Below, one piece after another: positions 21,335-54,110 of a DNA stretch of 64,000 nt. The stretch is from Cliona cf. orientalis (Eukaryota > Porifera > Demospongiae > Clionaida > Clionaidae). A program made the translations under genes and the position numbers. The stretch covers positions 4,340,001 through 4,404,000 of the forward strand of contig OZ005707.1 in the NCBI GenBank assembly GCA_963930775.1, read 5' to 3'. The notes under the pieces are model-generated. The model had not been told where the DNA came from, made no database searches, and saw only the letters and a program-made list of their open reading frames with translations. The first letter of the stretch is position 1. Each line of letters opens with the position of its first letter.

Positions 21335-23938
21335 ATGGCGCCCAAGTTGAAAGTCATTACGTGTTCCCTGCTGGTTCTCTTTGTCGTTTTGTTGCTACTT
21401 GATCTTGCCACTTTTGGAGTCCTGATTGGAGTGGGTAAGAGATTTAATAGAGTTTATCTATGACCAGTGAAGACCTTTTCAAGTCATAAATAATTAAAAA
21501 ATTATATATTAATGTTATTGTAGCCAATCAGAAGCACTCAAAATTATGTATGACTTGGTGTGAATACCAGTTAACGTTAGGGGTATTGTCTTCTGTTTCT
21601 ATATATCCCTTCAGCTGTACGTGGTATTGATGAGGCCAACAATGATAACTCATGCAGTGCGGAGGCCAATAGCTCTGTAGAGTGTGTGCTAATAATAGAT
21701 CTGCTGACTCCTGAAGGGATGGACGTGGTGACGGGAACGAGGTCGAGGGGGGAGATCAAGGGCGCCAATGATGTCTACCTCTACTGGATGGCTGGTGCCA
21801 CAGGCTGTGGAGTGGTGTGGGCCATTGTCAACACTCTGGCACTCATCGTTCTCAGTGAACTCATTCGTGCTCTCTACAAGGTTGAGGAGAAGAGGCACAG
21901 GCCTACAAGAGTTGCTCAAGGGTAAGATACCATAATATTATTATTAGTAGTATAGCAGGAAATTTGTCAGAGTTTCATGGAGAATTTTTGAAATTTGAAA
22001 CTTAAAACATGTGCCTATGACACTGAGCATTCTGATCGCCATTTGGTTTCATAAACATGCTAGTTAACTTGTGAGATGAGCCTTGTGTCTTGGCTCATGT
22101 CTACCTTTGTTTAATTTGAATCTCAGTGCTGAAGGAGAAGACAGCAAAGAAGAAATTGAGTTGAATCCTCGCACATCATCAGTTTCCTCTACCCAAGAAA
22201 GGGAACAATCCAGCTCTGACCAAGTCGACTTTGCCAGGGGACCTGACAACATTGAGGTATACAGATACTGCTTATTTCCATGTAAATTAACCATGAATTA
22301 ATCAAGGATGTACACTGTATATGTGTGCATGCTTGGGTGTGGTTGAGACCTTTCAAGTCATAAAGTCGTGCACATGGGTATGGTTGCTTTTGGTCACTTC
22401 TGGTGGTCAATGTATTAAATTTGTGGCTTCCATATACATGTAGCTACATGTAGGTAGCTGAGCACCAGTACTGGGGTAGGGTTGAAACTAGTTTCGCTAT
22501 CACCCAGATCTAACTGGGATATGTGCAATACATCCAGTGCTACGGGAAGTTAGGTCTGGGTGATAGTGAGACTGAAACAACACCTCTGGTCTCATAAAAT
22601 GTAGTCTGGTAAGAAAGAAACAGAAGATGGTTCTATCCTGCATGCTACATGTTTGAGTCTCTCATGACTATTGTGTATCTACGTGTTTAATAGCTTACAG
22701 AAGACACTATTGGCAGTTACCAGGAACATGAGTGGTTGAAGAAACGCCTGAGGCACTTCAATCTCTTCTCTGTCATTGGCCTATTTCTCAGCTCCCTCTC
22801 CTATGCCTGTGCATTGCTATGCTGTAAGCTGTAATAATATTTTATTTGTTTACATTAACACCTGCACCATGTTACTATTTATGGATAGTCTGTTGTGACT
22901 ATTTTTAACACTGAAATATATTTATTACTGTACACAGTGCTGTGGGGTATTGCTATCTCCTTTGACCACACCCGACGTGCTACCAAAAGTGTCACTGCCT
23001 TCATCACCGTGGAGATTCTGACAGCCGTCCTGCTGCCTGTGTTCCTGTTCGTGGGTACCATTCTACTGGCCATAGTATTGGACTTCATCACTGTTGGTCA
23101 CCTAGACCTACGCATCATCATTCCGCGGTTTGTCCGAGATGTCCGGCTTGAGTCAGGTGAAAAGAAGGACTACTGGGTGGTTGATGATACTATCTACTAT
23201 CCCCTCAAGAAGAAGGAAGATCGAATGGAGCACAGGTTCTGCTGCTACTCCATTGATACTGCTCCAGCAACATGGTTTCTGACTATCATTGTATGCACTG
23301 GTTTTCACCTTGCTATCTCCATCTTTGTCGACATGACCCTTGACCGTCAAATTACCGTTGACTCCTGTAATAATGGACTCATTGATCGTACCTTTGACTG
23401 CTTCAATGCCAGCACCCTACGTTTCGTTGATTGTGTGGACAACACTCAAACCAGCCTTCTACACTGCTTCAAGTTTTTCCGTTTTGGAGTCGAGACGGAC
23501 TTTGTCAGTGCAATCTCTGCTTCGTACTTCATCTTTCTACTGACCATGGCTATCTTTTCGCACATCTACTTTGTTGTCCGGAATCTTCTTCGTATCAAGC
23601 CGTCGCGTTTCTGGGGTATAGGATTCGTTCTGGCTGGCATCATCTGCTACATCAGTTCAATTGTTGTGACAGTGTTTTGGATTGTGGGTTATGCAGCTGA
23701 CAGCATTGCTGAACTCCAGCAGATCAATATCATCCATATTGCCCAGTTCTTCATGGTATCCAACTTCTTCACCACAGTGGGGATGTTCCTGCTCGTTGGC
23801 AAGTGGTACGAGAGGGTGCTGACAAAGGTGCACGCTGAACCAATCAAGATCCCCCTAATCAGCTATAATGATACTGAGAGAAAGTACATTCACGAAGTTG
23901 CAGCCCAGGACACCTGGCCAGGCCATACTGACGATTGA
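21335..23938 (+). CDS. Eight-TM membrane protein family, paralogue A
   Basis: Exons 21335-21434, 21615-21921, 22127-22256, 22694-22823 and 22938-23938 (intron phases 1, 2, 0, 1) give about 555 aa. TM1 lies in exon 1. It is followed by a predicted extracellular loop with two Cys (NSC...VEC) and N-glycosylation sequons. TM2 is in YLYWMAGATGCGVVWAIVN. Then come a charged cytosolic linker (exon 3), the HEWLKKRLRHF motif and TM3 (exons 4-5), and TM4-TM8 in exon 5. Between TM4 and TM5 is YWVVDDTIYYPLKKKEDR. Between TM5 and TM6 is a four-Cys loop (DSC, FDCF, VDC, LHC) with sequons. LRIKPSRFWGIGF precedes TM7. I do not recognise the family; transport, adhesion or receptor roles are all open. It is the most diverged of A-C in the linker. 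Confidence 0.85.
22485..22585. repeat. Hairpin MITE in gene A intron 3
   Basis: GTTTCGCTATCACCCAGATC and its near-inverse GTCTGGGTGATAGTGAGAC enclose about 50 bp. GAAAC occurs on both sides, a possible short duplication. It resembles the foldback at 52875 in form, not in sequence. Confidence 0.55.
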
Positions 23939-24302
23939 TGAACTCATTAATGCAATCATTCGTGTTCATATTATTATGGTTGAGCTTCAAACCTTGGTGT
24001 CAACCTCAGTGTTGAGGCTAATGGTCAAGTGCTTTATTCCTTGCTTTATAATGTATACAATGTAGTAATTATTATTTTGTATTGTAGATCTATACAATTT
24101 GTGGTTTCTGGGTAGCAACAATAATATTAAATTACATGGTGATATCTTGTGCATTTATAAGTCTTATGTCCTTACCATTAATAGGCAAATACCTTAGCAT
24201 CAAAATAATGCATATTTATACATGGGTATAGGATGCTGGGTGTGTCAAGTCACGCCCACAAAGTAATTAGCCCAGCTTGTCAGCGCAGCAAGATCAAGCA
24301 AG

Positions 24303-27300
24303 ATGGCTAAGTGCAGCTGTTCTGTGACCTGTTTCGCGATTCTCTTTGCTATATTCCTGGCGCTTGATGTAATTTTCCTCGGAGCAACTATCGGACTAGG
24401 TAAGCCATGTGCCCTATGGGAACGGTACAGTTTTGCTCGATCGAAGCATAGAATATATAATCCGAAGCCTTCGGGCAAACAGGGTGTGGTCGTCGTGTGT
24501 AAAGGTCATTGTCCTCATCATTGTTTCCTTGCGCAATTGCAGCGTGGTACGGCATAGAGGAGGCTGATAACGAGAACAACTGTCGTCTCTCCAACTCGAC
24601 CGAGGACTGTATTCCAGCAATAAGTCTCATTTCTCCCAATCAGTCGCTAGAAGAGGTGCCTGGGCGAATCCCGAACTTTAACTATGACCTCTACCTTTTC
24701 TGGATGGGCGGTGCCACTACCTGTGGACTGGTGTGGGCCGTCATCAATGTACTGACTCTTGCCTTCCTCAATGAAGTCATCCGAACACATCTTGTTTTGC
24801 TGGATAAGGTGGAGAAAGAATTGGCTGATGGGTGAGTTATTTAATACTTCTGTATTAAGATGGTATGATGTTGCACCACAGCCTTAATTATACATTAATG
24901 TTGGTATTATCAGGGATTCCCCCAGAACAGAATCCACACCAGGTGCTTAATGATATTCATAGGCTTTTAATTAAGTTGTGGCTTTAAACTCCACCCATTT
25001 CTTTGATGTTTATCCAATTAGCCCAAAGTCAAACTGGGTGGCCCACCCTGATTCAGGTATGCTGGGGGAAACACAGTATTATCTTTTCACCCAACTATCA
25101 ATGCTGTAGCAGGTATATTATAGACCCGATACATGCAGCTCAAGGCCACCAGGTGGGTGCTAGGCCCACCCTAAGCCAGCCTCCAAAACCACAGTGACAG
25201 CTACTACAGTGCAGCCTAGGCTAGTAAAACATTAAGTGCTTGAACTACACTAATGAATTCTGCATTAATTGAATGGAAAAGTGTCTGGATAGTCAAGTGA
25301 ATGGCAGGACATACTGGCTATTTGTCCGGAAAATATCTGATGTCCGACCGTTATCATAAGGTCTGCATGATCGATCTCCCATAGCTAAATTGTTCACTTT
25401 TGCTCTTAATACCATGTGCAAAATGCATACGATGTTGAATGTGTGGAATTGGCTGTTCTTGCTACCTTATAATATACCAATAGTTAGAGGTTGGGTGTAT
25501 CCATGTGCAATTGTGCTAGTCACAACTGTGATAAGTGGCTGTAATAATTTGGCCTGCCTGGGAGAGTGGGAGCTCTCTAACTGAAGATTGTAGTTTTGCT
25601 ATTGGTGTATTGAAAATTATCACCTAGGCATTAATTAATTATTTATGTAGTACTTAATGAAGTACATAAAATCAAAAGTTGGTCTAATTTCAACATCTCC
25701 AACATGATAGTAACGCAAGTGCTATGCTGGCATACCCACACTGTTGCCAGCATGCATGTGCTGCCAGGTGTACCTGGTCAAACAATGTGCTGATGTCAGC
25801 TACATGTAAAAGATACTGAGCCTCGAAGCCAAGAAAGTCATAATTAAGACATCTCACTAATGTGATTGCTCATATCAGGCATGGATTGTGTTGCCTATAC
25901 TAGCTGTGGATTTCAACTCCTGAAAGTTTGCAGACACCTTGCTATTATATAAAGCGGAAATGTACTTAGCCCCACTGCCTGTACAAACTCATGCACCCTT
26001 ATACCGTAATTTGCCTTTTTTTCGATGTTAAAAAATTTTCGTTTCCTCGAGAATGACGAAAATAATTTACTTGAATATTTTCTAACAACGAAAGTTTTTC
26101 GCAATGAATAATTAGAACAGTTGAATTTATTACGGTATATACACGTGGGTACGCGCACGCGCACCTAGTACCTACCTGGGCCATTTAATACACGCAGCTG
26201 TCGCGAACAGTCTCCAGCTATTCGTTGATCATGTCGATTCGGCAGTACTTCAAGCCAACTAACCAACTTCCCGATCCTAAAGGGCCACTATCAAACGGTA
26301 TTTCTTCCTCAGCAATAGCATTGGCCAACCGGGAAGTGCTAGAAGCAGCTGCGATCGCAAAGAAATCGAAGAAGCGTGGTTCCTACACAAAGTGAGTACC
26401 AATGAATTATTAATTTTTTTTATTAGCATGCCTAAACACCCCATACTGTTCCTGATATAAAGGAAACTGGAAAGCTTGTAGCTACATATAAATTATCTGT
26501 AATTTCTCGGGTTGAAAAGTGTTACAGAGGCGTGGCCAACTCTATCGGCGCATGATGCTATAATTTTTATGTTCCCTTTTTGCCCCAGGTACACTTCTCA
26601 AATGAGGGCAGAGATTGGCAGATATGCTAGTATTAACGGTGTACCTGCTGCTAGCGCCACCTTTTCGAATAAACTAGGTGTGAGAGTGAGCAAATCGACA
26701 GTCAATGTGATGAAAAAGGCTTACTTGGAGAAAAAGAGACGGACTGGTTCAGGGGCGGTGACTACTCTATCTCCTAAAAAGCGTGGTCGACCTATCCTTC
26801 TTGGGGCTCACATAGATAAGCAAGTACAGCTCTATTTGAAGAAGATTAGGGAGCATGGAGGGGTGATTACGGCATCTGTCGTGGTGGCTGCTGCCCGTGG
26901 AATTCTGATGGCACAGGATAAATCACTGCTGGCAGAATTTGGAGGTCATATCACTTTATCGAGGCATTGGGCATACCATCTTTTGAATCGCATGAACTTT
27001 GTCAGGAGAAAAGCTACGACATCCAAGAGCAAGTATAAACCAGCAGACTTCGCTGCAGTCAAGGAGCAATTCCTGAATGACGTGGTATCCATAGTGACGA
27101 TGGAAGAGATCCCTCCTGAACTCATCCTCAATTGGGACCAAACAGGCATTCATCTGGTACCAGTATCTCCATGGACAATGGAGCAAGCAGGTTCTAAACG
27201 AGTTGAGATCAATGGAATCAGCAGCAAGCAGCAGATCACTGCTGTTTTTTGTGGTTCCCTTACTGGTGATTTTTTGCCTGTACAGCTGATTTACCAAGGA

Positions 27301-30300
27301 AAGACATCACGCTGCCATCCTACTTTTGATTTTCCAGACAACTGGCACATTACCCATTCTCCTCGACATTGGTCAACTGAGGAGACAATGATCCAATACA
27401 TTGACGAGATCATCCTGCCGTATGTTAAGAGACAAAGGGACGCTTTTGACGATACTACTGCGGCGTTGGTCATCATGGATAACTTCAAGGGCCAGATAAC
27501 TGACTCCGTCAACAGCTTACTCGAGTCCAACAACATCCAAGTTGCTTTGCTACCTGCCAATGCCACTGACTTACTCCAGCCGATGGATATTGCCGTGAAT
27601 AAACCAGCCAAAGACTTCTTGAAACGCAGATTCGAACAATGGTATTCAGATGAGGTCACCAAGCAGCTAGAAGGAGTCGAAGATATAGAGTCCGTAGAGG
27701 TGCAGCCAGTTGACATGTGTTCTGCTGCAATGAAGGTGTTGACGGCAAAGTGGCTGGTAGAAATGGGGGAGTACCTTTCAGAGAATCCACAAATTGTGGT
27801 CAATGGATTTAGGCATGCTGGCATCTCAGCTGCTCTGGACCTGGACGACAGCTATGAATCGGATCAGGAAGAGGTGCAAGAAGCAGATGTTCTCTCAGAC
27901 GAAGAGTGTGACGCAGACGATGAGACTGCGATCATCTCGAGTGATGGTGACTCGCATTAAAGATGTACTTTCCTTCTACATGCATGCAAACCTCAGGATT
28001 AACTACGATCTAATAATTATATTATTGCTATTAAAATTTAATATCTACAGTCTACTGTACATCTTCTCACATTCTCAATGATATAATATTATAATAGGAT
28101 CAACCATGGAAATTATTAATGGTGACATAAGTACTAACATTGTACATGTACACATTTAGCTACAGTTTCAGACATCTTTTTAGCTTGTCCATCTCCTTAG
28201 CCTTGCCTTTAAATAACAGCTTGCACGGAATCTCTAACCCTCCTTGTGGTAAGTCAGCAGAATATCTTCTACCTCCACTCACAATACACGAAATTGTACC
28301 CCCTCTTCTTAAAAACAGCGAGCAAATTTTAGAAATTTTTCTCGGCAGATGCCCAATAATGACTCCACCCTTTACAAGGCCACTCCAAATTAATTCATTG
28401 TTTCTCATCCCCCCCTGAGCCAAAAACTGATGCGGGCGGGCGGCTGGAAATGGTCGTTTATTCACAAGTTTGATGGGAAATGGTCGTCAAAACCATAAGT
28501 TCAGCAGTCCAAAAAATCGAGGCGGTATACTTTTGTATTGTGCTGGTGCTGATGGGAATACATGCGGGCGGAAATCAAAGGGGGATGAGAAACAACTAAT
28601 TGATTTGGAGTGGCCCAACAGCCACTGCATATCTGTCGGATGTATTGGTTGGCTCTCTCTCACAGGCCAGTTCTTCCCCCACCGCCGCTACCCATATAGC
28701 CTGGTAAACGTGGTAGCCTCTCACACAGCAAGGCACCTCTCTCTCGCCACCGTCCATCTTCGCTACCGTGTATGCACGCCACACCCCTAGCCACACCCGA
28801 GCGCTATCGCGCGCGAGAGTAGCTCGCGCCTGCGCACTAGTGAAATTCTTTCGTTGTTAAAAAATTTTCGTCTAAATAAAAGTTGACGAAAATTTTGTTA
28901 CACAAAAATTTCTAACGTGAAATATTTGCGAACGAAAATAACGCAAATTACGGTAGCTGACACATTAGCAACAAATTTGTTGAGTCACTTGTTAAATATA
29001 CAGCAAGGAGAATTAGACACTAGATAGAGCACTGTAAGTGCACTAAAAGTTCTAGCCTCTTTGTTAGTAGCTTTCATGTACTTGACTGTGGGGTTATGGG
29101 TCACATTGCATCGTCGAATTTTGCGATAAGCCACATCCACCCTGTATCAGAACAATGACACCTCAATAATCTGTCACTAAATTGGATCCCAAGGGTGTCC
29201 AGATTACATGTATGTAGCTACATGTAGTGTTTCGTGTACACTTTGTAGCAAAGATGAGTCCCGCTGAGAGTGTTGCCATGATGTATACATGTACATGTAC
29301 ATATGGAAGCCGAGAGGTGCAATTACTGCACATCGGCCATTTCCGCATGCAGAGACATCTTCTACACGTGCGGAGAGCCAGCTCCGCATGCAGACACACC
29401 TTATTCGCGTACAGAGAGGTAGCCCCACATGTGGAGGCAGTTTGTTGGCATGCAGACACCTAGCTCCACATGTGGAGGTACTTTCTCGGCGTGCGGAGAC
29501 CTCTTTTTCAAATCATTACAGTCTAGTTGTTTCATTAATTACCCCATCAGCATTAGTAGTAGCGTCGAGCTTAGTGTGCTAAACTTCTTGAGAAGCCTCT
29601 TTAGCAGGCACTGTGGCTTTTGTGAGGCTGTGACTGAGGAAAGGCCCGGTATCAAGGGTGTGGCTAGCAAGACTAGATCCAGCGATGGTCAAAACAGAGA
29701 GCCAGAGTTCGATATTTAGTAAGTTATAGCACTTAGTAGCTACTGTCCATATTCTCTGGCTACTGGCTCTGAGCTAGCTAGTGAAACCAGGCTTCTTGGG
29801 GCGGGGCCCAACTCTACAAGGTGACCACACCCAGCTTTATTGACCACGTCCATCATTTTCGTCCATTATAATATTATTGGGTTGCATGAATCGTCACACT
29901 CTTCACCACTAACCATGACTAATGTTCAGGCAAGCAGCTGCTGATGAGCTAGCTAGCGATTTTGAAGCTTTAGCCGTACTTAATCTAATACCACGTATAT
30001 AATATATTATGGAAAAAAAATAATTTCAATTTTGAAAATCGTGCGCTTTTCTGGTAAAGGTCATCAATCGCTCCATATATACACATTATGAGAATTCGTA
30101 AAATGCTAATTTCTTACGTTAGATTGGATCATACGTTATATTCGATTAACTACAGTAATTATCTTTGCTTTAGCATAGCGTTTTTATCTAGTAAAATGCT
30201 AGTAATATTTATAAACTTTAAAGTAGGCATATTAGCACTACTATGCCACTGAGTCTGGTGCTCGAACACCCTGAGTGCACCCCCCCCCCCCCCACGCCAC

Positions 30301-32413
30301 TGCTAGCTAGATAGCTATTAGATGAAATTCCTCGACGCAGTCCTGTTACTTTTGCTGGCACTGGTGACTGGTCTACCTGTATGTAGACAATGCCTATGCA
30401 GCGCATGCATGCAGAGCTGTCCAGGCTCTCCGCACACCGAGAAGGTACCTCCGCATGCGGAGCTGGGTATCCGCACACCAACAAACTGCCTCTGCATGTG
30501 GAGCTGGCTCTCCACACGTGTAGAAGATGCCTCTGCATGCGCAAATTAAATGGGCGTCATGCGGTAGCTAAATTGCACTTCTTGGTTTCCATATGTACAA
30601 GAGCATTTCCATTTCCTTTGCAGCAGGTATGGGGATCGCAGTTTGAGAGACCGTAGTATTTGATTGCGTATGTATTGTCACAGGTGTGCTACATACACAA
30701 TGTGATATTGTTTATGCATACATGTAGTACAGAGAGCACATTAATAGCTTGGTGTAGGTATTACAGTACTGGTAACTGGTACAATAGCAACTTCGGCAAG
30801 CTGGGGGGGGGGGGGGGGGGGGATAATGTATACTATGTACAAGTGAAGTTGTGTTGTGTATATAATTATATTATCTCTATGTACAGAGCTCATGAACTCA
30901 AGAATGTTGAACACAAAGTGTCAGGTGGAGGACAATCTGCTTCAGCTAAGCCACAGACAGATACTGCCAGCAAAGGCTCTACTCAGAAAACCCAGTCTAA
31001 ACCGGAGACGGACAAGTTTGAAGATCCAGACAAGAATATAGATGTATGTTATCTTATAAGGAGCTGCTTATGGAATAGTTTTCCCTTTTAGCATAAACAT
31101 AAAGCATAGACCATGAGATAGTAAATTTTACTTAGCCTCGTACCCCAGCATTGAAAACTCTTTTATTTTGCTGATGCAGGGCTTCACAGATCAAATTGGT
31201 GCTGTCCGTGACCACGAGTGGTTACACAAGCCACTGAGGCACTTTGGACCACTGTCGACTGTGTCACTGTTCCTCAGCTCTGTCTGCTTTGCATGTGCTC
31301 TCCTATGCTGTAAGTTAACATCACAGTGAGTGACCAAGTGCCATTGTTTATTGCTGTCATTTTGCAGTGGTGTGGGGAATTGCCATTTCCTTCAATCACG
31401 CTCGTCAAGATGCAAAGAGTGTTATCACTTTCATCGTCGTTGAGATCCTGGTTGCTGTAGGTGTGCCAGTCTTCTTGTGTGCCTCGGTTGCCTTCTTTGC
31501 TGTGGTGCTGGAGTACATCACCATCGGCCACCTCGACATGCGCACACTCATCCCTCGCTTGATTGGCATGGTGAAGTTTGAATCTGGTGTGAAATTTGAC
31601 TACTGGGTTATTGACGATATCTTCTACTATCCCTTGAAAAGGAAAGATGGCCGCAGTGATAAAGGTTGCTGGTTCTCGGTCGATAAATCTCCTGCAACAT
31701 GGTTCCTTGCCATCATCATTGGCACGGCCTTCAACCTCGTCATTTCTTACTTTGCTGATTTGACATTGGACGCCCAGATCACCGTCACCTCGTGTGATGA
31801 CCCACTGATTGATCGTACTTACGACTGCTTCAGTGCTGGGGACCTTGAGTTCATCAATTGTGTGGACAACAGGAATGCCACTCTACTGCACTGCTTCAAA
31901 TTCTACCGCTTTGGAGTTGAGACTAACATCATCACTGCTATCACTACCTCCTATGCCTTTTATTTGGTTACCATAGCGGTATTCAAGCAAATCTTCTCTG
32001 TGGTCAGGAACCTTGTGCACATCAAGCCAAGTCGATTCTGGGGTGTGGGATTTGTAGCCATTGGTCTTATCCTTTATGGTGTTTCAGTTATAGTGCTTGT
32101 CTTCTGGATTCGAGGCTATGCTGCTAGTGCCATATCTGAGCTTCGACGGATCAACATTATCCACATCTTTCAGTTCTTTATGGTGTCCACATTTGTCACC
32201 ATGGTGGGTGGGCTGTTGCTCAGCAAATGGTATGAGAAGCTTCACACCAAAGTCCATGCCAAGGTTATCGAAACACCGCTTGTTCACTACACCGATACCC
32301 AGAGGAAGCACTTGCATGCAATGGAGGCCTCTGAAACTTGGCCTCCAAATCGAGACTCTCATCCACCTCATACCCCTCAGCATTCTGATACCCAAACCAC
32401 TGTGATCACCTAA
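24303..32413 (+). CDS. Eight-TM membrane protein family, paralogue B (6-kb intron)
   Basis: Exons 24303-24399, 24543-24831, 30887-31043, 31180-31309 and 31368-32413 (phases 1, 2, 0, 1) give about 572 aa. The layout is as in A. Exon 1 is a membrane anchor (CFAILFAIFLALDVIFLGA). Loop 1 has two Cys (NNC, EDC) and an NST sequon. TM2 is in LYLFWMGGATTCGLVWAVIN. The linker is Gln/Ser/Lys-rich. Exon 5 has YWVIDDIFYYPLKRK, the four-Cys loop (TSC, YDCF, INC, LHC) and HIKPSRFWGVGF. B is closest to C (CWFSVDKSPATWFLAIIIGT is identical). Intron 2 (6.05 kb) carries an autonomous pogo-like transposon, a 1.3-kb inverted-repeat element and a G20 tract 64 bp before exon 3. The exon 2/3 join was inferred from phase, position and the shared HEL motif with C. 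Confidence 0.8.
26004..28953 (+). mobile_element. Autonomous pogo/Tigger-like DNA transposon
   Basis: Left TA-CCGTAATTTGCC and right GCAAATTACGG-TA are inverse, with matching subterminal TTTTCG and GTTAAAAAATTTTCG blocks. The 2.95-kb element encodes one intact two-exon transposase (26231-27960). It lies in intron 2 of paralogue B in the same orientation. Its ends share the CCGTA tip with many short MITEs in the window. Confidence 0.85.
26231..27960 (+). CDS. pogo-family transposase (DDE superfamily), two exons
   Basis: Exons 26231-26391 and 26589-27960 join to about 510 aa with no internal stop. The N-terminus has KKSKKRGSYTK at the join followed by a helix-turn-helix region (MRAEIGRYASINGV) and a CENP-B-like second DNA-binding segment (GRPILLGAHIDKQVQLYLKK). 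The catalytic core shows three acidic residues in family contexts: D237 in ILNWDQTG, D351 in VIMDNFKG, D387 in LLQPMD. The last two are separated by 35 residues, as in pogo-like DDxD enzymes. It ends in an acidic tail. The element lies inside a host intron, so it must be tolerated by splicing. An intact frame suggests recent activity. Confidence 0.9.
29295..30600. mobile_element. 1.3-kb inverted-repeat element with CATGYGGAG iterons
   Basis: Ends TGTACATATGGAAGCC and GGTTTCCATATGTACA are inverse. Arms of about 220 bp carry CCGCATGCGGAG / CCACATGTGGAG-like palindromic words repeated about every 25-35 bp. The interior has no gene. A stretch near 29970-30080 recurs inverted at about 41690-41770. 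It lies in paralogue B intron 2. Superfamily unknown. Confidence 0.7.
30803..30822 (+). repeat. Poly(G) tract, 20 G
   Basis: Uninterrupted G run 64 bp upstream of exon 3 of paralogue B. It is G-quadruplex-prone in the transcript. Confidence 0.85.
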
Positions 32414-33262: not shown

Positions 33263-33396
33263 ATATTATCTATGGCCATATTATGTAACTGAGTGTACTG
33301 ATCACTCTTAATTTTGCCCTGCCGGGACCATAGCTTTTTAGCTCGGGTCAAATCGCTTCCGGTAAACTCCCGCTCGTACGCACGCACAGACAACTG

Positions 33397-40260: not shown

Positions 40261-41232
40261 GCGTGGAGCTCGGCTGAAAATACTTCAACAGGAACATCGC
40301 GATCGATGGCTGACACCTAGCTTAGCTAGCCGCGTAGTTACGTGGGTAAGTGTAAAACCTAGTATATACCTGGACTGGATATGACACGTGATGTATGTCA
40401 CACCCGTTTAGGTATGCCACGCCCCAAATTTCGCCGTTCGCTGGTGGTCGAAAATCCGCAAAATTTGCGAAAGTTTCCCGCTATACGGTGTCATAGTCCC
40501 CCTGGACACTGTACCCTAGGGTAGTATGTCCCCGGGGACGGTTAAATATATGTTTGCTTAAAAGTAACAAAAATACCTCGAGTTACTCTAGGGAAGGATT
40601 TAAGCAACCATTACCTCGAGTTACTCTAGGGATGGAATTAAGCAAAACACACCTAGAGTTACTCTAGGGGAGGTTTTAAGCAACCAGCTCTTTGCTTAAA
40701 ACGCTGGTAATAATACACACGTATCTATATTATATCTCAGGGCCGTTTAACGCAAAGTGATACAACGATCGAAAATCGTACAAACGACGCAGTCGTAACA
40801 AACCACGCCCCTTCATTAAACGACGCTAGTCTCAATTGCGCACCTACTTCTCGGCATGCGCATGCGCACTAGATGGCTAGAACCGCTGGTAAATTTGGAG
40901 GGAAAGAGCTAATGAAGCTGCAGGCAGTTGTTGTTGGCCCACTTCTATACCAGTGCTTTTCAGCACTACTAATAATCTAAGTCACACTCATTGGATGGTA
41001 TGAACATTAACAATCGCAAGGAGATCAAGATGGTGCATCCCTGAAACATTGTTGTAGCTAAGTTGCCTTGATCCACATCCCCCTAGTGGCTAGTTTAAAC
41101 GGTTATTACATACTATGTCATATTAGCTTTGTGCTATCTGTACATCCTTTGCTATCAAGAAGCAAGAAATATATTAATTATACAGAGCATGAATCATACA
41201 GCAATCAAGCTATTATCAGACTACCATATACA

Positions 41233-42853: not shown

Positions 42854-43951
42854 TGTCAGGTAATAGCTAGTTTGATTTCTGTATGATTCATGCTGGGCAC
42901 TGGGGAGAAAACCGTGTGGATCAAGCTAGAACCAAGCAAAATATCAGCTCAAATTGGAGTTCATTGGAATTCTCTCCACAAACTGACCGCAAGCCCGCCG
43001 AAAAATTCATCGACCACGCCCCTTATTATGCGTGAGAGAGAAAACAGAGATATCTGAAGAACAAAGCAAAATATCAGCTCAAATTGGATTTCATTGGAAT
43101 TCTCGCAAAAAAAGACTGTAGTCTAGTGCGCATGCGCATGCTCAGGTGCACTAGCGTCGTTTAATGAAGGGGCGTGGTTTGTTACGACTGCGGCGTTTGT
43201 GCGATTTTTGATTGTTGTATCACTTTGCGTTAAACGGCCCTGAGATATAATAATGTGTGTATTATTACCAGCGTTTTAAGCAAAGAGCTGGTTGCTTAAA
43301 ACCTCCCCTAGAGTAACTCTAGGTGTGTTTTGCTTAATTCCATCCCTAGAGTAACTCGAGGTAATGGTTGCTTAAATCCTTCCCTAGAGTAACTCGAGGT
43401 ATTTTATCCAATTTTAAGCAAAAAATGCCACGACCCCCGGGGACGTACTTCAGGTGTCTCCGTAGGACATTTGACACTAGAGTCACGTGTCCTTTCTAGG
43501 GCAAAGGGCCTGGGCACGAAATGTGTCTCCATAGTCTGGTGTGGTCATACATGTACTAGCGTAAAATAAGAAATATTACCTTTAGGGAAGATTTTATGCC
43601 ATCAATGCCTTCAGGCATAAAGGGAAGATTTTACACCATCATCCCCGTTCTGTACATAACAGAAACATTTTAGCTTGCAAAGAATTTCAGCGCATATTCC
43701 CTTGTGTGCAATCAATGTAATATGTGCATATACAGGGAAGATTTTACGCCAACTTAATTTCCGAGACATTATTACTAGGGTCCTACCCCTTCCCCTGATG
43801 TGGGATATAATATGTAACATAATAGTACAGTGATTACAGTTCCAATACATTACTCCCATAGGCAAGAGTACGGATTACAGCTGTAATTGTACTCTTGCTC
43901 TATAATTGGTACTCCTGCTATAGCCTGGGGCAAAATTTATGCTATTATCAA

Positions 43952-44119: not shown

Positions 44120-44270
44120 ATACTAATGGGAAGATTTTACGCCAATTACATGGCTGGCATAAAATCTTCCATTATGACTGTACACAGTCAAGAGGAGCAG
44201 ATATTACGCTGTCATAGTTTCTTCAATTTATCTTTATTAGTAGGGTCCTATCTCCTCCCCTGATGTGGGA

Positions 44271-44985
44271 TATTGTATGGCGGGTAATTTTCGTGGGGTG
44301 CTAGCTAATTGTCGTTATTTTCGTGATTGACTTGGCAGTCACGAAATTTTCCCACCCACGAAAATTAATGCCTAGGGTGATATGGTACTATGCGAGTCCA
44401 TGATGATGGGCGTGGCCACAAACATCGTGGCAGCACGGCCAACACTTTCCAGTATAGCAAGCAACAGTAGCCACTGTTATCCAGCTGATAGATGTTCGAT
44501 ACTAATATTCTTCTATCTCATGTTATTTGTCCAAGTCTCTGTAGATATGGCTTACCGTACTTACTGTAATTTAGGTGGCACTGTAATATAAGCGCCGTCT
44601 GGCCATTTATGGTATTTTTCCCTTCTAAATATAGCGCCAAGCGTCGACGGAATTATTTTTAGGTGGCGCTTAGGAATTACAATTCGGTACTATGTACCAC
44701 ACGCCACTGTTATTTCTAAGTGCCACTCTAATATAAGCGCCATTCGCCATCGAAGCGAGTTTTTAATGCTTGAATGTAAGCGCCGAGCGAGGTCGGAATT
44801 ATTTTTTCTGGCGCTTAAATTACAGTAGTAACAAAGAAGATCGCGAGCGCGTGTATCGATTACATCATCGTTTGTGCAGCAGTGCCACGGCCCTGGACTG
44901 GTTGCTGTCACGAAATTTAAAACCACGAAAATTAATTTTGAGGGGCTTTTCGAACTTTCTACGAAAATTACCCGCCATAAAACCT
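44271..44985. repeat. CCGTATGGCGGGTAATTTTCG MITE, copy 2 (interrupted)
   Basis: The left end is TTGTATGGCGGGTAATTTTC and the right end AAAATTACCCGCCATA. Collinear with copy 1 at 12052 except for the insertion at 44554-44828. Confidence 0.85.
44554..44828. repeat. MITE with ACTGTAATTTAAGCGCC ends
   Basis: Defined by comparison with the uninterrupted copy at 12052: the extra sequence starts near TACCGTACTTACTGTAATTT and ends GGCGCTTAAATTACAGTA. The interior repeats TAATATAAGCGCC words. Confidence 0.75.
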
Positions 44986-45737
44986 TTACCTTGATCCTCA
45001 ATGTCCCAGGCCTACCATGTCCGAGGAAGGATCAGGGGTGTTGATTTGGCGCTATGGGATCGCAATTGGTGCCATAACACATCCTTGATACAGCTGTAGC
45101 CTATTGTAAGAACCTAGCTACAGCTGTGTCAAGGATGAAATTTGCAGTGCCAAAACTTGCTTCCTATAGTCAATAGCTAAATGATTCTTCAGTTGTAGGT
45201 ATAGCTCTCTTCTTTTAGCATAAATTTTGCTAAAGAAAGGCAGTACGTAGCTACGTTCATTGGCCTAAATTTATACTAGATAGAGAGCATTCAAAGTTTT
45301 AGTAGTTATGTGCTTGCCCTCTCATATCACCACCCAAACATTAAATTTTTGGGCAGAAGCAGCTATTACTTTAAAATTTTTCTAAGCTGAAGGGAAATCA
45401 AATGCAAACATCACCAAAAGAGAATGGCACAATGTTTTGATATCCAAAAATATGTCCAACCCCTGGACGATCCTCCCCTAATTTTACAGTGGGATACAGT
45501 AGATACATAATATTGTACATAACCGAATAGCTATGCTGTACTGGAACAATAGGTTAGCTAATTCTATTTTGTTCGTCATCAAATGAACGTTTGTGTAAAT
45601 GTGAGCTTTTGTGTGCGGTGCCAAGCTGTATTTCGCCACCAAATGTTGTCTTCAACCTAAAAAAATTTCAACACCCATGAAGGATATTACCTTTGACTTC
45701 CACCATAGAGACTATGGACCACTGACCTTGGAAAGGT

Positions 45738-45763
45738 GGGGGGGGGGGGGGGGGGGGGGGGGG
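45738..45763 (+). repeat. Poly(G) tract, 26 G
   Basis: The longest single-base run in the window. A variable-length, quadruplex-prone tract inside the 2.9-kb element. Confidence 0.85.
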
Positions 45764-47014
45764 TCATGCACGTTTACTAAGCAGCATAATATAGAATTCG
45801 ATACTTCTGGCGGGATTTCAGTACTTCGGTAGCTATTTCGATCAGAGATGAAACTATTCAATGTGCTTCTGTTATGCTAACCTGCTGTTTATGCAGACTC
45901 ATCCTGTCCTTCTTCACCAACCACGCTTCATGGGAGGCACATCTTTGCTAGCATTCAAAATTAATTTTAACTTTATACCTCATACTCACACTGCCAATCA
46001 AATACATAGCCATAGACGGTCATTTCAAAAAACATATCACTGCAAATGTTATTGCTGGCATTGTTGATCAAATAATATGATGCTATTTAATACACTGCAG
46101 TGCTTAAAAGGGCAAAGGTCATGCTGCAAATATCTGTGATAGCTATATACTTAAGTTTTTACTCCTTTCAAACTTCTTAAGACAGTGTAGTAGTATCTGC
46201 TCCTTATGACTGTGTACAGTCATAATGGGAAGATTTTATGCCAGCCCTGTAATTGGCATAAATTAAATCTTCCCATTATATATCCCACATCAGGGGAGGG
46301 GGTAGGACCCTACTAATAAAGATAAATTGAATTTGCCTTAAGAAACTATGACAGCATAATAATATCTGCTCCTCTTGACTGTGTACAGTCATAATGGGAA
46401 GATTTTATGCCAGGTACAGAATGGGGATGATGGCGTAGTCTTCCCTTTATGCCTAAAGGTGGCATAGATGCCATAAAATCTTCCCTTTAGGTATAAAGGC
46501 AGTATTTGTGAATATACGCCAAAATGTACATAACCGTCTGGCGTAGCTGACCCTTGGTTAATGTCCACATACAGTATCAGTAAACTTCAGCCTTCATCAG
46601 GGCATAAATGGGCTCTTCCATTTAATAGGCATACATCCCCATTGAGGAGCTAGTGATAATTAATCTTGTGGGGTATTTTCTACCAAACAGCAGATTCCGG
46701 AGGGCATTTCAGATAAATTTAATTGATCCTAGGGGGTTCAACTGTCCAAATTAATTATTCTTAGGGGGCAAATTAAATGATTTCCTGGGGGGTCATTTCA
46801 CAATTTGCTCCTCAATAGAGTATAAAATGGAAAAGCCCAATGACTATAAGTCAAAGTAGCAGGAATCACAAAAAGTTTACTGTCAACATGATAAAAACTA
46901 GAGCTCTATAGAGCACATACCCCGCGCGCGCTGATGCAGATGCGAGCAGCCTGTTGACGATCTTTACCTACATATTGTGCCAGGTTGTGCGCATGAGCAG
47001 AGAGCACATAGCTA

Positions 47015-47206
47015 CCGTATAGCGGGAAATTTTGGAGGGAGAAAACTTTCGCGGATCGGTAGGAAGGAGCATTTCGCGGAGAAAACTTTTGCGGAACGTT
47101 AAAACTGGTCGCATAATGGGTGTGGCATGCCTAGAATTTCGTGGAGAAAAATTTCGCGGATGGCTGAAAAATCGCGAAATTCGTGAAAGTTTTCTCCGCT
47201 ATACGG
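47015..47206. repeat. CCGTATAGCGGGAAA MITE, short copy
   Basis: TA-CCGTATAGCGGGAAATTTTG and TTTTCTCCGCTATACGG-TA, 192 bp. Same family as 35346 and 19366. Confidence 0.85.
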
Positions 47207-47948
47207 TATGTTATAGTGGGCAATGTCCATAGGCGTGGTCAACAAAACGCAGTATTTGCAACGCTCATGGGCCTTGTGAAACGATTCGAAGCATACTGAA
47301 GCCACTTTTTCGGATACCGGTACCGGTGTCACAGGCTAGAATGACTCACAGGCTAGAGTGACTCCCCAGTCATTCTAACCTAAGGATGAAATGACTCCCT
47401 CCAGGAGGAAATGACTCCCCCAGATAATTGGTATTTTGCATTTGTCTTCGCATCCCTGCAGCTGAGCAGCTTCTCAGTCTGGACATGATACAAAAAAAAG
47501 CCCCTAAATAAGTTGCCATTGGCCTTTGCCCCTAAAGCCTGAGCCCTTCACTTTTGCTGAGCATCCCTCCCTGGAAATTTTTTTTAAGTTTGATGTGCAA
47601 AGGTCAATAATCCGAGCATGAACCTTGATTTTCAAGACCTGTCAAACAACACCTAGCCAGGATTTCATCCAGAAAAAAATTTGGGGGAGAAGTGGGTGTG
47701 GCAATTTCACGCATCGTGTCCCACCTCCTCCCTCATTAACCGTTAATACCCCTTGCGCATGCGCGCGGGGTAATAAATCGGTGAATTGATGAAATTGCAT
47801 GACCCGGGCATCCAGGCCAGGGGACTCCTAACACTGGAGAGGACGTTCTACACTGTAGGGCTGCATGTCCGGGGGGAGGCACGTGGTTCAAGTGCAGAGT
47901 GTCTGGGGGACACTGTACACGGGGGGACAGGCAGCACATGCCTCGGCC

Positions 47949-48080
47949 TTTGTATCATTGGTAAAATTTAATGGGATTTTCATGCCGGAAGTATGACCAC
48001 ACCCACCAATTTGTATCATTGGTAAAATTTAATGGGATTTTACTCTTTTCATGCCGGAAGTATGACCACACCCACCAATT
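47949..48080. repeat. Tandem duplication of a 60-70 bp unit
   Basis: ATTGGTAAAATTTAATGGGA ... GACCACACCCACCAATT occurs twice in a row. The second copy has a short extra ACTCTTTT. A young local duplication. Confidence 0.85.
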
Positions 48081-48116
48081 AGCGTGTGCGATCGTGTCTA
48101 TCATCAGCAACAGGGC

Positions 48117-48133
48117 GGGGGGGGGGGGGGGGG
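48117..48133 (+). repeat. Poly(G) tract, 17 G
   Basis: Uninterrupted G run in the spacer upstream of paralogue C. Confidence 0.8.
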
Positions 48134-48869
48134 TTGGGGCTGATTAGTTGGGCTTTGGAAGAGTTAGCGATTAAGCTGCATAAACCCCCAGGCTCCCCAT
48201 TTCAATTTTCGAATCAAACAATGTTGCCAACATTGGCTGTTGATGTTTGAAAACTTGAATCGGAAAAAAATGCTCATTGACTATATATATATCTAGCGCA
48301 GTGGATAGTCACGGGCAATAATTTGTGGGGGGGATTGGATGTTGCTGCCAGATAATATTAAATTTTAAATTAGTAGCGCAAGATTCAGGAGTTCATTGTT
48401 TTAATAATCACAGATGCCCATGAATGATACTGTCATGTATTCAGAATGACACAAACATATTACTGACGTTAAGTTGGACTCAACTGTCGTGTATAGCTAC
48501 CTGGACAGGATACCGTACTAATTGTCTCTTTGCACCATAGATAATTAAGAATGAAGCTGTTGCTGAAGCGGGGTGAAAAGAATTCACGCGGGGCATTAAT
48601 TACTCTAATATGCGCATGCGCGTGTTGAGGCAGCGCGCGAGTCGAGAAGTGCATGCAGAGATACCTATTCGGCGTTTCTCCGGTCTTATAAATTAACGAT
48701 CCTTTATTTAATTTATGACACCATTGGCCTTAGCTGGGTCGACCCTTTCCCTGACCTTACTTTTCACTTGTATAGAGGACGAGTATCCTTTATCACCCAA
48801 GCAGACGCTGCGCCCTCGTTTGTGGCTATTAAATTTTGTGCAAGCAAGCGGGGTGCAGCTATAATAATT
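48134..48869. other. Spacer upstream of paralogue C
   Basis: No gene, and no repeat with recognisable ends. A GCGCATGCGCGTG site at about 48612 and the last few hundred bases probably include the promoter of paralogue C, which is not defined. Confidence 0.4.
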
Positions 48870-50912
48870 ATGAAGATGGCCAGGCTGAGTCGTGGCGTAG
48901 TCTCTCTGGCAATACTATTTGCCATATTCCTAGCACTGGAAGTGATTGCCTTTGGAATCACCATTGGATTGGGTAACCCACTCATTTATTTAATTTTAAT
49001 AGCGCATATTGGGACGTGCACTGGTACTTGCACAGTGCTTGACAATGTGGGCAGCTAAGCTATTTGACCTTCTGTAGCTATGATATTTAAAATGTATTTA
49101 GATGTATTTCTAGTTTAGCCATGACACACGAGTGTCCATACCCGTGCATGCTCACTGTCACAATTGTTATGCCACTTTTCAGCATGGCATGGCATAGAGC
49201 AAGCTGATGGCTATACAGAAGCTGAATCTACCCCATCTGCTACTGGAGTTTCTGCACAAATCTCTCCTTGGAATCAATCTATGATCAGTGATCACAAGTA
49301 CCTTTACTGGATGACTGGTGCCACTGCTGCAGGACTGGTGTGGGCATGCATTAATGTTGTGACTCTTATTCTCCTCAGTGAACTCATCCGGACACATCTT
49401 GCTCTGCTGGCAAAATTAGAAAAGATAATAATTGAAGAGTGAGCCCATATAAAATTTATCATCAGTTTATTACGACTTACATGTAGGCCTAATAATGTTA
49501 TTATTATGAATACTACAGGGTTCATGAATTGGAGTTAATATCTAGAGATGCTACTCCTGAACCTCCAGTACAACCTTTGTCACAGCCTCCACCTGCTCCT
49601 GAGCCAGAGCTGGAAGAGTTTCAAGGACCTGGCAATATAGAGGTACCGGTATTATATAAACAGTTGATGAGAGCATAGTGTCACTATCAGTAGCTACTTA
49701 TATGTACTTCCATTATATTGTAGGGGTTTACAGATCAAATCGGTGGCTTTCATGATCAGGAATGGTTAAATAAACCATTGAGACATTTTGGACCATTTTC
49801 AGCTCTATTATTATTCATCAGCTCCACTTCATTTGCATGTGCCTTCCTATGCTGTAAGTGAAATAACCTGTCAAGCAATTCTTTAAGATGTATTCCTTCT
49901 GATCCTTGTTACAGTGATATGGGGAATCGCAATATCCTTTAATCATGTTCGTCGCATTGAGAAGAGTGTTGCAACTTTCATCATTGTTGACATCTTGGTT
50001 GCTGTAGCTCTTCCAATCTTCTTGTGCACCTCCATTGCCTCTACTGCTGTAGTACTAGAGTATATCACTATTGGTCATCTTGATCTGCGTACCACTATTC
50101 CTCGCCTGGTTGGAATTTTGAAGTTTGAACGTGGCAAAAAATTTGACTATTGGGTCGTTGATGATCTCCTCTATTATCCCCTGAAGAAGAAAGAAGATCG
50201 CGGCAACAAAGGTTGCTGGTTCTCAGTTGATAAATCTCCTGCAACCTGGTTCCTTGCCATTATCATTGGCACTGCCTTCAACCTCGTCGTTTCTTACTTT
50301 GTTGACTTGACATTGGACACTCAGATCTCAGTTGCCTCATGTGACGACCCACTGATAGATCGCACTTATGATTGCTTCAATGCTAGTACCCTAAATTTTG
50401 TTGACTGTGTGGACAATAGTGAGACTACTCTTCTTCACTGCTTTAAGTTTCATCGCTTTGGTGTTGATACCAACATCATCACAGCAATCAGCACTTCCTA
50501 TGCTTTCTACCTGGTCACCATTGCAACATTTAAGCACACCCTTTCTGTGGTCAGGAATCTCATACACATCAAGCCAAGTCGATATTGGGGTGCTGGACTT
50601 CTAGGGATTGGCTTGATCTTCTATACTGGTTCAATTTTCGTCCTTATATTTTGGATTCGAGGCTATGCTGCTGATGCGATATCTGAGCTTAAGCGCCTCA
50701 ATATTATCCAGATCTGGCAGTTCTTTAATGTATCCACATTTGTCACTATGGTGGGTGGACTGTTGCTCAGCAAGTGGTATGAGAAGCTGCCTACCAAGGC
50801 TCATGCTAGGTCGGTGGAGATGCCACTTGTGCACTATGATGATACTCAGAGGAGGCATCTGCATAATCTGGGGAGTTCGGACACATGGCCACCTAAGCCT
50901 GTTACCGAGTGA
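48870..50912 (+). CDS. Eight-TM membrane protein family, paralogue C
   Basis: Exons 48870-48972, 49183-49438, 49519-49642, 49724-49853 and 49915-50912 (phases 1, 2, 0, 1) give about 536 aa. Exon 1 is an anchor (VSLAILFAIFLALEVIAFG). TM2 is in KYLYWMTGATAAGLVWACIN. The cytosolic linker is Pro/Glu-rich (PPVQPLSQPPPAPEPELEE). Exon 5 has YWVVDDLLYYPLKKKEDR, the four-Cys loop (ASC, YDCF, VDC, LHC) and HIKPSRYWGAG. Unlike A, B and D, loop 1 has lost both cysteines and the NST/NSS sequon, although an NQS sequon remains. C is closest to B, which suggests a B/C duplication later than the split from A and D. The B-C spacing of 16 kb is all transposon-derived. Function unknown. Confidence 0.87.
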
Positions 50913-51329
50913 CAGTGTCTAGCTAGAAACTAACAATCTAGCTATAACGTCATTATTATGTCGTTTAATTAGCTGTATTGCTGTAGTAAACTGCTGTATG
51001 AGAAGAGAATGTTTGCAGCTGTCTGATACATTCAGTTCATGTCCGCTCTGAATCACAGCTGGCTTGCTATTGACATCCTTCATGCAGGCCATAATTATTG
51101 TTACCTGGATTAATGGCTGATCATGCACGAAAATCACTATTGAGGGGAATCGAATCCTCCATATCTTGTAGCTACCCCCACATGCTCCTCGCTACCCCAA
51201 ACACTATCCAACGATATCACGCATGCGCACTTGTCCTCCGTATAGTTCAGATTTTGCGCATGCTCACAATGGCTCACCCGCTCTTCTAAAGGTCCGCCTC
51301 ATGCTTCGAGTGTACAAGAGTGTAGCAAA

Positions 51330-54110
51330 ATGCATAGAGTCATTAGACATCATGAAATTGCCGAGACCCTCAGCGTTGTTTTTTGGTTTCTTCTGGCATT
51401 GGATATTCTTTTCCTTGGAGGAGTCTTTGGATTAGGCGAGTATCTTTAATTTATCATTATTGCATGCATGCTGTAATATATCGGTTCAGTCCACCTATAC
51501 GCTGTGTCTACAGTGCCGGTACCGGCACCGCAATTTAAGCGTTATAGTGCCGGTAAGTCCATATAAAATACTGTACTCTTACGTAGCCCTAGTCCCCGCC
51601 CCCTCCTGCATATGGCAATATAAATTTGTACATAAATTTGCCGGCACTCTAGACACTGCGCCACCTATAGCTAGTTGCAATGGATGGGACAGCCACTTTG
51701 TTATCAGATCTGAAAAGGTACCAGCTGTTGGGGTATTTGTATGCCATAGGGCCTAAAGCAATAAATCATTGCTATGATTATCGAAGTTTGATTATCATTA
51801 ATTTTTACCCCGAGATCTGACGGTTTCTAGTCTTGGCAACAAAATATACAATCAATAATTATTGTATAATATATAGCTATTAAATTAATATTAGACTGTG
51901 AGAGCTGATCAGCTCTATGTACAATAACATTACCTGGATGTTAAACAAGTATTGTAACAGTAATGAAACCATATCCATGGAAGTGTGGAGCAGTTTTAAT
52001 TTAGAGAAAATGTTTGCATATCAACTATCCGATCATAAGGTTAATGTCGGCATAATTTTACTAATGCTGCAGCTATTGTTGGCATTGAAGAAGCATCCAG
52101 GAATAATAGTTGTTCACTGCTTGATAATTCAACCCAAGATGACTGTATTCCATCAAATATCTTCATCAAAGGGGAAGAAAGAGGCATACTAAGAAGCGCT
52201 AGCATCATTTATACCTATTGGTTGGCCGGAGCAACTGGGTGTGGCTTCCTGTGGGCCCTCATCACTACCATCACTGTAGCCTGTTTCAGTGAGATTGTAC
52301 GATGGAATAATAAGGAAAAGAAGGATCGACACATAAAGGCTATCAAAGAGAGAACAGCAAGGTAAATATAATTATTATTATTTCTAATACTTACGGACAC
52401 ATTAATAATAATATTATTGTTATCTCAGGAATAATGACACTGGAGCTGCAGTTGAGATGCAACCAGCTAATAATGAAGGAACAAGCTTAAGCAACATCAG
52501 AATGCGCATTGCTCAAGGCATACCAGTGATACGTAAAGCAAAAGCCCATGAAGTTAAGGTACTAAAATTAATGGTAGTTCAGCATTATTTGAGCACATTA
52601 GGTTTGTTGTTTAGGTGCTGGAGGAAACAGTTGGGGCTTACCAGGAGTATGAGTTACTGAAACATCACTTGAGGCCATTTTCAATTCTACCTGTAGTATT
52701 CATGTTCTTGAGCTCACTCTTTGTCATCCTTGCAGTCCTTTGCTGTAAGTTACATAAAACATAAGAGGTGCATAGGATGACTAGCAACCATCCTTCATTA
52801 CACTCTTAGTTAATATGCACTAGATGCCTGCCCATTGCCACCCACTGGGTATACTTATGCTATGTTAGCCACCCTAGTCTCGAAACCAGACTGCTCCCAC
52901 CGCAGCGTTTAGTAAACACTGCAATGGGAGTAATCCTGAAAGAACTAAATGCTGCGGTGGGAGCAGTCTGGTTTTGAGACTATAGCCACCCCCAGCTACG
53001 TTTCTTGTGTTAATCTCCTGGTCTCCTGAAAGTAGCTACCGGTATTCTTATAAGTCTAACAATATTATTACGTGTATCATGATGACTTTCTACCCACATG
53101 CAGTGCTATGGGGAATAGCATTATCATTTGCTTATGGCCAGCAGCATCAGCGAAACATTGTATTCTTTGTGTTAGTGGAGGTGCTCACTACAATTCTCTT
53201 GCCTACACTTTTGTGTGCTGGAGTAGGTCTCTTTGCTATAGTCATTGATTACATCACAATTGGGCGTATAGACCTGCGACAGTTCATCCCACAAATTGTG
53301 TCCATAGTCACGTTTGAGTCTGGTGACAAATACGATTACTGGGTCATCAATGAGGTCTTTTACTTTCCACTCAAAAAGAAATGTGATCGTATAAACCGTG
53401 GCTTCTTCTACTCTATTGATACCTCTCCAGCTACTTGGTTTCTTACTGCTATTGTCTGTAGTGCACTCTATCTTGTGCTTTCCTTTTTTGTGGACGTGAC
53501 TCTGGATGAGGAGAGAAGTGTTATATCTTGCACTAGTGACCTCATTGATGAAACGTTTGACTGCTTTAGTGCCATAACGTTTGATTTTGTTGACTGTGTT
53601 AACAATACTGCAAGTGAACCACTACATTGCTTCAAATTTCTCCAGTTTGGTGTTGAGTCCAACGTCTTGGTGGGCATCACGTCCTCCTATGCTTTCTATC
53701 TGCTCAGCATAACCATCTTCAGGCATTTATTTTTTGTAGTTCACGACTTGCTGCAGATCAAGCCTACCCGAGTCTGGGGTGTGGGCTTCTTGATAGTTGG
53801 GGTGACCCTTTATGCCGGTTCCATTGCCACAACCATCCTGTGGATCAAGGGCGTTACTGCTGGAAATATCAATCTCAGTTTGATCCATATCATACAGATA
53901 TTCATGTTGTCCTCTTTTATCACATTCATGGGGCTGCTTCTGATCACAGCTGTCTGGTTTGAAAAGATCAAGACCAGGGTTCACTCTCAAGCATCAAAGA
54001 TTCCTCTTGTCCATTACACTGATGCCGATAAGAGCAAGATTGTTAAGATTAGTGACATGGATGAGGAGAAGTGGAAACGTGCTGAAGTTGGAGTAGTGGA
54101 TCTACACTAG
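51330..54110 (+). CDS. Eight-TM membrane protein family, paralogue D
   Basis: Exons 51330-51435, 52073-52361, 52429-52558, 52615-52744 and 53104-54110 (phases 1, 2, 0, 1) give about 553 aa. The first intron appears to use a GC donor (G|GCGAGT). Exon 1 is HHEIAETLSVVFWFLLALDI + LFLGG. Loop 1 keeps two Cys (NNSC, DDC) and an NST sequon. TM2 is in YTYWLAGATGCGFLWALIT. Exon 4 has YQEYELLKHHLRPF. Exon 5 has YWVINEVFYFPLKKK, the four-Cys loop (ISC, FDCF, VDC, LHC) and QIKPTRVWGVGF. It differs from the others in several otherwise invariant sites (DD to NE, PSR to PTR) and is the most diverged copy in the core. Introns carry a CCGGCACTG-ended inverted repeat (about 51506-51658) and the foldback at 52875. 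Function unknown. Confidence 0.83.
51506..51658. repeat. Inverted-repeat element in paralogue D intron 1
   Basis: GTGTCTACAGTGCCGG at the left and CCGGCACTCTAGACAC at the right. About 150 bp with no coding content. Confidence 0.55.
52875..52982. mobile_element. MULE-like foldback, 108 bp, with 9-bp duplication
   Basis: Arms TAGTCTCGAAACCAGACTGC... and the inverse ending GAGACTA. The duplication tagccaccc lies at 52866-52874 and 52983-52991. It is in intron 4 of paralogue D. Confidence 0.88.

Follow-up and report, generated by a model that had tools for sequence, protein, structure and literature searches.

A four-gene tandem array encoding a predicted eight-pass membrane protein family in the sponge Cliona cf. 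orientalis

Four neighbouring plus-strand genes (g1-g4), each rebuilt from motifs and splice signals as five exons, form a tandem array in the 64,000-nucleotide stretch of Cliona cf. orientalis DNA analysed here (the window, taken from contig C19, one of the 149 contigs of a 216.8-Mb genome). Judged by sequence, their predicted eight-pass products belong to no described family covered by the searches, and the family appears sponge-restricted as far as named organisms go (Geodia, Ephydatia). The anatomy of the family is secure; its function is a guess.

Gene models and copy number of the array

The genes and their parts are located as follows.

21335-23938, plus strand: g1, 555 aa; exon lengths 100/307/130/130/1001
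21335..21434, plus strand: g1 exon 1, start, predicted cytosolic N-terminus and TM1; GT donor, phase 1
21615..21921, plus strand: g1 exon 2, predicted extracellular loop 1 and TM2 with GATGCGVVWA; phase 2
22127..22256, plus strand: g1 exon 3, variable, predicted cytosolic linker; phase 0
22694..22823, plus strand: g1 exon 4, linker end and first part of TM3; phase 1
22938..23938, plus strand: g1 exon 5, remainder of TM3, TM4-TM8, four-Cys loop, tail and stop
24303-32413, plus strand: g2, 572 aa; exon lengths 97/289/157/130/1046
24303..24399, plus strand: g2 exon 1
24543..24831, plus strand: g2 exon 2
24832..30886, plus strand: g2 intron 2, 6,055 bp, its length increased by repeats together with a pogo-like transposon
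30887..31043, plus strand: g2 exon 3
31180..31309, plus strand: g2 exon 4, also matched by the Geodia protein P0052
31368..32413, plus strand: g2 exon 5
48876-50912, plus strand: g3, 534 aa; exon lengths 97/256/124/130/998
48876..48972, plus strand: g3 exon 1
49183..49438, plus strand: g3 exon 2, predicted extracellular loop 1 without Cys
49519..49642, plus strand: g3 exon 3
49724..49853, plus strand: g3 exon 4
49915..50912, plus strand: g3 exon 5, whose reading frame served as query for the two structure models and heads the search profiles A2 and A3
51330-54110, plus strand: g4, 553 aa; exon lengths 106/289/130/130/1007
51330..51435, plus strand: g4 exon 1, donor GC (GC-AG intron)
52073..52361, plus strand: g4 exon 2
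52429..52558, plus strand: g4 exon 3
52615..52744, plus strand: g4 exon 4
53104..54110, plus strand: g4 exon 5, most diverged copy

Exon 5 of each gene is an open reading frame (ORF) of the first-pass annotation, and the upstream exons were located via motifs and splice signals. The annotation had described four same-strand genes of identical five-exon architecture with intron phases 1-2-0-1. All four could be rebuilt as such: the predicted spliced models share these phases, each ends in a single terminal stop, and the motifs listed by the annotation recur in 4/4 spliced proteins. Introns are of the GT-AG type in 15/16 cases across g1-g4, the exception being g4 intron 1 (GC-AG).

Most database relatives cover exon 5 alone, which would suit models that are wrong, the genes being either exon 5 ORFs alone or pseudogenes. 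Against this stand the exon phases and splice sites common to the four copies, the purifying selection described below and two annotated sponge proteins. The Ephydatia muelleri protein P0053 has a similar TM1, loop 1, TM2 and TM3 before its exon 5 part, and the Geodia barretti protein P0052 spans the exon 4 to exon 5 sequence: its residues 39-78 match 31186-31305 in g2 exon 4 (E 0.79, weak alone but collinear), and residues 79-326 then match 31364-32098 in g2 exon 5. The P0053 model thus backs the N-terminal half and the P0052 model the junction of exons 4 and 5, and wrong gene models are considered scarcely credible.

The four proteins share 38.8-66.4% identity, far above chance (g1-g2 51.6%, g1-g3 52.3%, g1-g4 42.9%, g2-g3 66.4%, g2-g4 40.7%, g3-g4 38.8%), and in 6/6 pairs divergence is highest at the third codon position. 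By a simple counting method, g2-g3 has dN 0.24, dS 1.08 and dN/dS of about 0.22, while dS is 3.0-4.8 or undefined for the other five pairs; g2-g3, the single measurable pair, is under purifying selection. No further family fragments were detected in the window by tblastn at E 0.01. Searches of the sponge's own genome with g3 exon 5, P0038, P0034 and P0052 led back to the same four exon 5 loci, the sole extra match being g2 exon 4, found by P0052. The array thus holds all members found in the 216.8-Mb genome, formally at least four, since these searches score the best candidates alone. PMC7385117 describes many tandem clusters of identical intron-exon structure in the E. muelleri genome, and the array itself is consequently ordinary. 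Tandem duplication within multi-pass membrane families confined to one lineage is likewise a familiar pattern.

The second intron of g2 contains a transposase ORF (26503-27960; Pfam DDE_1, E 2.4e-14) of pogo-like type. It lies in a DNA transposon at 26002-28955 with imperfect inverted termini (26002-26043 and 28914-28955, 42 nt, 76% complementary). Another inverted-repeat structure of this intron (29336-30546; arms reaching 118 nt with 70-80% complementarity, separated by about 930-1040 nt) is possibly a foldback element. The 16-kb gap separating g2 from g3 holds two tandem arrays of 38-bp period (40573-40686 and 43289-43401), about 2.6 kb apart, whose units are near reverse-complementary. Elsewhere in the window, the ORF at 746-1714 encodes an immunoglobulin domain (Ig_3, E 1.7e-7) and, on visual inspection, a TM as well as a tail containing tyrosine; a leucine-rich-repeat fragment lies on the minus strand at 4174-4599 (LRR_6, E 7.6e-14); and the ORF at 9742-11565 encodes 607 aa, acidic by eye and without a Pfam domain, including about 11 tandem 63-bp (21-aa) repeats at 10731-11435 (85% matches).

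Membrane topology and conserved core

Hydropathy analysis gives eight segments in g1, g2 and g4; in g3, where TM6 and TM8 were missed, the eight passes are supported by alignment with the other three proteins and by structure models. N-glycosylation sequons, counted in 36 related sequences with hand-set loop limits, number 45 in the TM5-TM6 loop, where 35/36 sequences carry them (14.8 after shuffling; largely one inherited site), and 1 in the TM4-TM5 loop (6.1 after shuffling). Under the same limits, the TM6-7 loop (0 versus 1.3) and the TM7-8 loop (1 versus 0.7) are uninformative, and the C-tail (8 versus 4.8) is of no help to an N-in/C-in arrangement. Lysine and arginine make up 16-19% of the TM4-5 and TM6-7 loops, compared with 6-7% of the TM5-6 and TM7-8 loops. 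The first-pass annotation had flagged the short TM3-TM4 loop as basic and at odds with N-in/C-in. The loop is indeed basic (23% K+R), which argues against an outside position, but its counterpart in P0029 and P0058 is larger and bears two Cys and several sequons, making an outside position the better reading. Sequons, charges and the enlarged TM3-TM4 loop of these two relatives together point to eight TMs with cytosolic N- and C-termini and four outer loops, and so strengthen the topology that the annotation had proposed. A variable linker, likewise predicted to be cytosolic, would connect TM2 to TM3.

The TM5-TM6 loop has exactly four Cys in 53/53 aligned rows, including g1-g4, with a middle spacing of 11 in 53/53 and an 11-11-11 pattern in 30/53; the four Cys probably form two disulfides. 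Further positions of the C-terminal half are invariant in 53/53 rows (T20, W21, F38, F64, F88, F91, W134 and G135), polar residues are conserved within TM4 and TM8, and two conserved motifs are predicted to be cytosolic, YW...YYPL.K ahead of TM5 and PLVHY.DT.R in the tail. Extracellular loop 1 and exon 3 both vary in length among g1-g4, and loop 1 of g3 (exon 2, 49183-49438) has no Cys, unlike that of g1, g2 and g4. A C-terminal motif of PDZ type was noticed by eye on a few relatives (P0034, P0035, P0041) and not on g1-g4.

Relatives and searches against known families

Profile searches of a database of 5.8 billion sequences, each scoring about 8,000 candidates that share most words, returned 29, 48 and 52 proteins. 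Even with E up to 1 allowed, the weakest match reached 2.8e-38; a candidate has to share short exact words with the query, and relatives at a very great distance could therefore escape. The relatives P0001-P0058 comprise 57 further sequences and P0016, which is the window's own g4, and none has a listed Pfam domain. An organism or locus name is attached to 2/58, P0052 (GBAR_LOCUS3801, Geodia barretti) and P0053 (Em0012g957a), both from sponges. The prefix Em stands for Ephydatia muelleri, in agreement with locus names in PMC7385117. Both are hypothetical proteins of the same family with the same four Cys, and share 32-45% identity with g1-g4 in the C-terminal part common to all. The P0052 model stops approximately where TM8 begins. 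P0053 has a similar N-terminal half and, compared with the exon 5 ORF P0047, seems to lack the last part of TM3 and the first part of TM4, which is probably a splice-model error. No relative was confirmed among 82 pattern matches in a prokaryote collection of 84,980 species or among 282 in viral contigs, and a plasmid collection gave no match. Among open-licence papers, no literature on the family was found by locus name or phrase, and broader listings of this literature showed no title on it.

In a 53-row tree, in which 13/50 inner branches are unresolved, g1-g4 fall in four separate places, each beside database relatives. The neighbours of g1 are P0006 (98.0%), P0008 (89.1%) and six others (63-82%); those of g2 are P0004 (84.9%), P0001 (88.8%) and P0005 (83.3%); those of g3 are P0002 (91.3%) and P0011, P0017, P0007, P0009 and P0010 (80-86%); and g4 stands beside P0028 (67.1%). 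With the database clustered at 90% identity, the closest of these neighbours (P0006 and P0002) may represent this species or a sister species. Several relatives come from contigs of equal size (P0005/P0009/P0010/P0033, 665,416 bp; P0039/P0042/P0046, 713,160 bp; P0004/P0011/P0044, 7,391 bp; P0029/P0038, 389,918 bp; P0014/P0027, 104,127 bp), which suggests clustering elsewhere too. Because g2-like and g3-like rows seem to share two of these contigs (P0005 with P0009/P0010; P0004 with P0011), the duplications appear to predate the split from these relatives.

The first-pass annotation had recognised no named family, and this view was upheld: Pfam, NCBIfam, PDB sequences and Foldseek gave weak partial matches at most. 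No whole-length match to a known transporter or receptor family, which would have removed the novelty, occurred in the profile searches or in the fold searches, the latter covering the exon 5 and TM5-TM8 models. In Pfam scans of the window proteins and relatives, no match with a shown score reached its cut-off; for most of the 36 members scanned E-values alone are given, and the best (1.1e-4) has 22.8 of the 32.1 bits required. The best matches were E 0.011 in NCBIfam and E 0.39 among PDB sequences. Foldseek gave nothing at E 0.001 for the exon 5 model, the TM5-TM8 model or the viral structure library, the last without any match. Candidates such as DUF4064, DUF1647, Ctr and CDC50 were rejected as partial and, where a score is shown, sub-threshold. 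The DUF4064 model (PF13273) matches about 50 residues near TM6-TM7 in the Geodia-type branch (5/36 members, E up to 10). Its best match, P0051 (E 1.1e-4, 22.8 bits), covers positions 46-101 of 102, half of a short model; all five scored proteins (P0049, P0050, P0051, P0054, P0055) lie below the curated 32.1 bits, and the domain is not listed for the window's proteins.

By profile, no repeat between the halves of the protein was detectable. Comparison to the C-half reached E 0.23 for the whole N-half, E 0.25 for TM1-2 and E 0.12 for TM3-4, and 20 column shuffles of the C-half, a control for the whole N-half comparison alone, gave E 0.0058-0.78. Alignment of TM1-2 with TM3-4 gave E 0.062.

The claudin-like C-terminal half and candidate functions

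The first model of exon 5 (pLDDT 66.3) was too uncertain in TM3-TM4 for use, and its Foldseek list held no useful match. The TM5-TM8 model has the order H18-42, E43-49, E62-65, E83-88, H97-128, H133-161, H173-194, which corresponds to the element order of claudins and TARPs in a predicted N-in/C-in four-helix arrangement. As in the claudin/PMP22/EMP/MP20/TARP group (Pfam PMP22_Claudin and kin), the first outer loop of this half is large and contains Cys, with one predicted strand after the first helix and one before the second. Claudin/TARP is also the most recurrent multi-pass membrane family over the whole C-half (17/50 rows; VKOR 3), at fold scores not clearly above those of unrelated helical proteins and without a significant fold match. 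The claudin first outer loop carries the signature W...GLW..C...C. In the eight-pass family the cysteines are present, but the loop has no W and no GLW/GNW in 53/53 rows, and its four Cys (11-11-11 in 30/53) set it apart from the claudin superfamily. Claudins are, moreover, stand-alone four-pass proteins, whereas g1-g4 have 534-572 aa and eight predicted TMs. Of the 26 Pfam families matched in 36 members, the 25 shown do not include PMP22_Claudin, and the other Pfam scans do not show it either, a negative limited by HMMER filters that drop most weak matches; no PDB claudin was found by profile, and the Pfam claudin model had no match in the sponge's own genome, but none in 14 control genomes either. 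Tetraspanins are comparable in having four passes and a Cys-bearing outer loop, as each half would; their large outer loop follows the third TM, whereas here it follows the first TM of the half, and the tetraspanin CCG motif was not seen by eye in g1-g4. The superfamily topology used here follows that described for MP20, together with its adhesive junction, in PMC11947226.

A claudin-like contact, barrier or auxiliary membrane protein is tentatively proposed, a weak commitment made because of the 17/50 C-half rows and the lack of a convincing transporter or receptor match. An orphan transporter or channel, in which all eight TMs build a single pore or carrier and substrates vary between paralogues, is about equally possible and just as tentative. 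The polar residues inside TM4 and TM8 would fit it, but the matches that point to it are weak (Ctr copper transporter, E 0.016, in 1/4 window proteins; ECF transporter, E 0.081, in P0036; a fluoride efflux model, E 0.023, in 2/36), LRRC8 rows scored no better than unrelated rows, and no halves repeat emerged. A cell-surface receptor, whose Cys-rich outer loops would bind ligand while the cytosolic linker and tail signal, is rather unlikely. Glycosylation sites and invariant cysteines in the outer loops, conserved cytosolic motifs, local duplication with divergence and about nine GPCR rows in the Foldseek list (E 1.9 or worse) would agree with it; the number of passes is eight rather than seven, the Pfam families shown (25 of 26) include no 7TM receptor family, and the four-Cys loop spacing is strongly conserved instead of variable.

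The first-pass annotation had also hinted at allorecognition. The tandem arrangement and the length variation of extracellular loop 1 and exon 3 would favour an allorecognition or immune array under diversifying selection, but exon 3 is predicted to lie inside while the extracellular Cys scaffold is invariant. Relatives from other contigs group with each paralogue in a separate clade, genes of the g2-like and g3-like types apparently occur together on two other contigs, and the four copies are the only ones found in the genome. Because of the purifying selection in the one measurable pair (g2-g3, dN/dS about 0.22), the separate paralogue clades and the invariant outer scaffold, the hint is disfavoured and allorecognition is regarded as very unlikely.

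In the tentatively favoured claudin-like reading, the TM5-TM8 half would be a four-helix unit that makes contacts, laterally or between cells, through its first outer loop, which bears strands and is braced by disulfides. Anchoring to cytosolic partners would fall to TM1-TM4 together with the conserved cytosolic motifs (YW...YYPL.K, PLVHY.DT.R). The paralogues g1-g4, each with its own expression, would serve as components of an epithelial contact, a barrier or a membrane complex of the sponge. A more specific idea, a sponge-specific sealing or adhesion family whose claudin-like C-half evolved apart from classical claudins and helps to make epithelia tight, is improbable on present evidence. 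According to the literature, freshwater sponge epithelia seal, while claudins and occludins appear absent from Amphimedon, with loss or an independent mechanism left possible (PMC2993944), and claudin was not found in the glass sponge Oopsacas (PMC10280926). A figure legend of PMC9729800 restricts claudin among basal metazoans to Cnidaria, while the main text of the same paper mentions placozoan claudins as well, along with claudin-like genes of ctenophores; a claudin of E. muelleri is named in PMC7385117.

The molecular basis of tight sponge epithelia is disputed, and a sealing family would contribute to it if the idea were true; with the E. muelleri member, the barrier idea could be put to the test in a laboratory sponge. 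Should it fail, the family would still merit a profile entry, which would end its piecemeal annotation as hypothetical proteins. Conserved, multi-copy and undescribed, it offers a good handle on the distinctiveness of the sponge cell surface.
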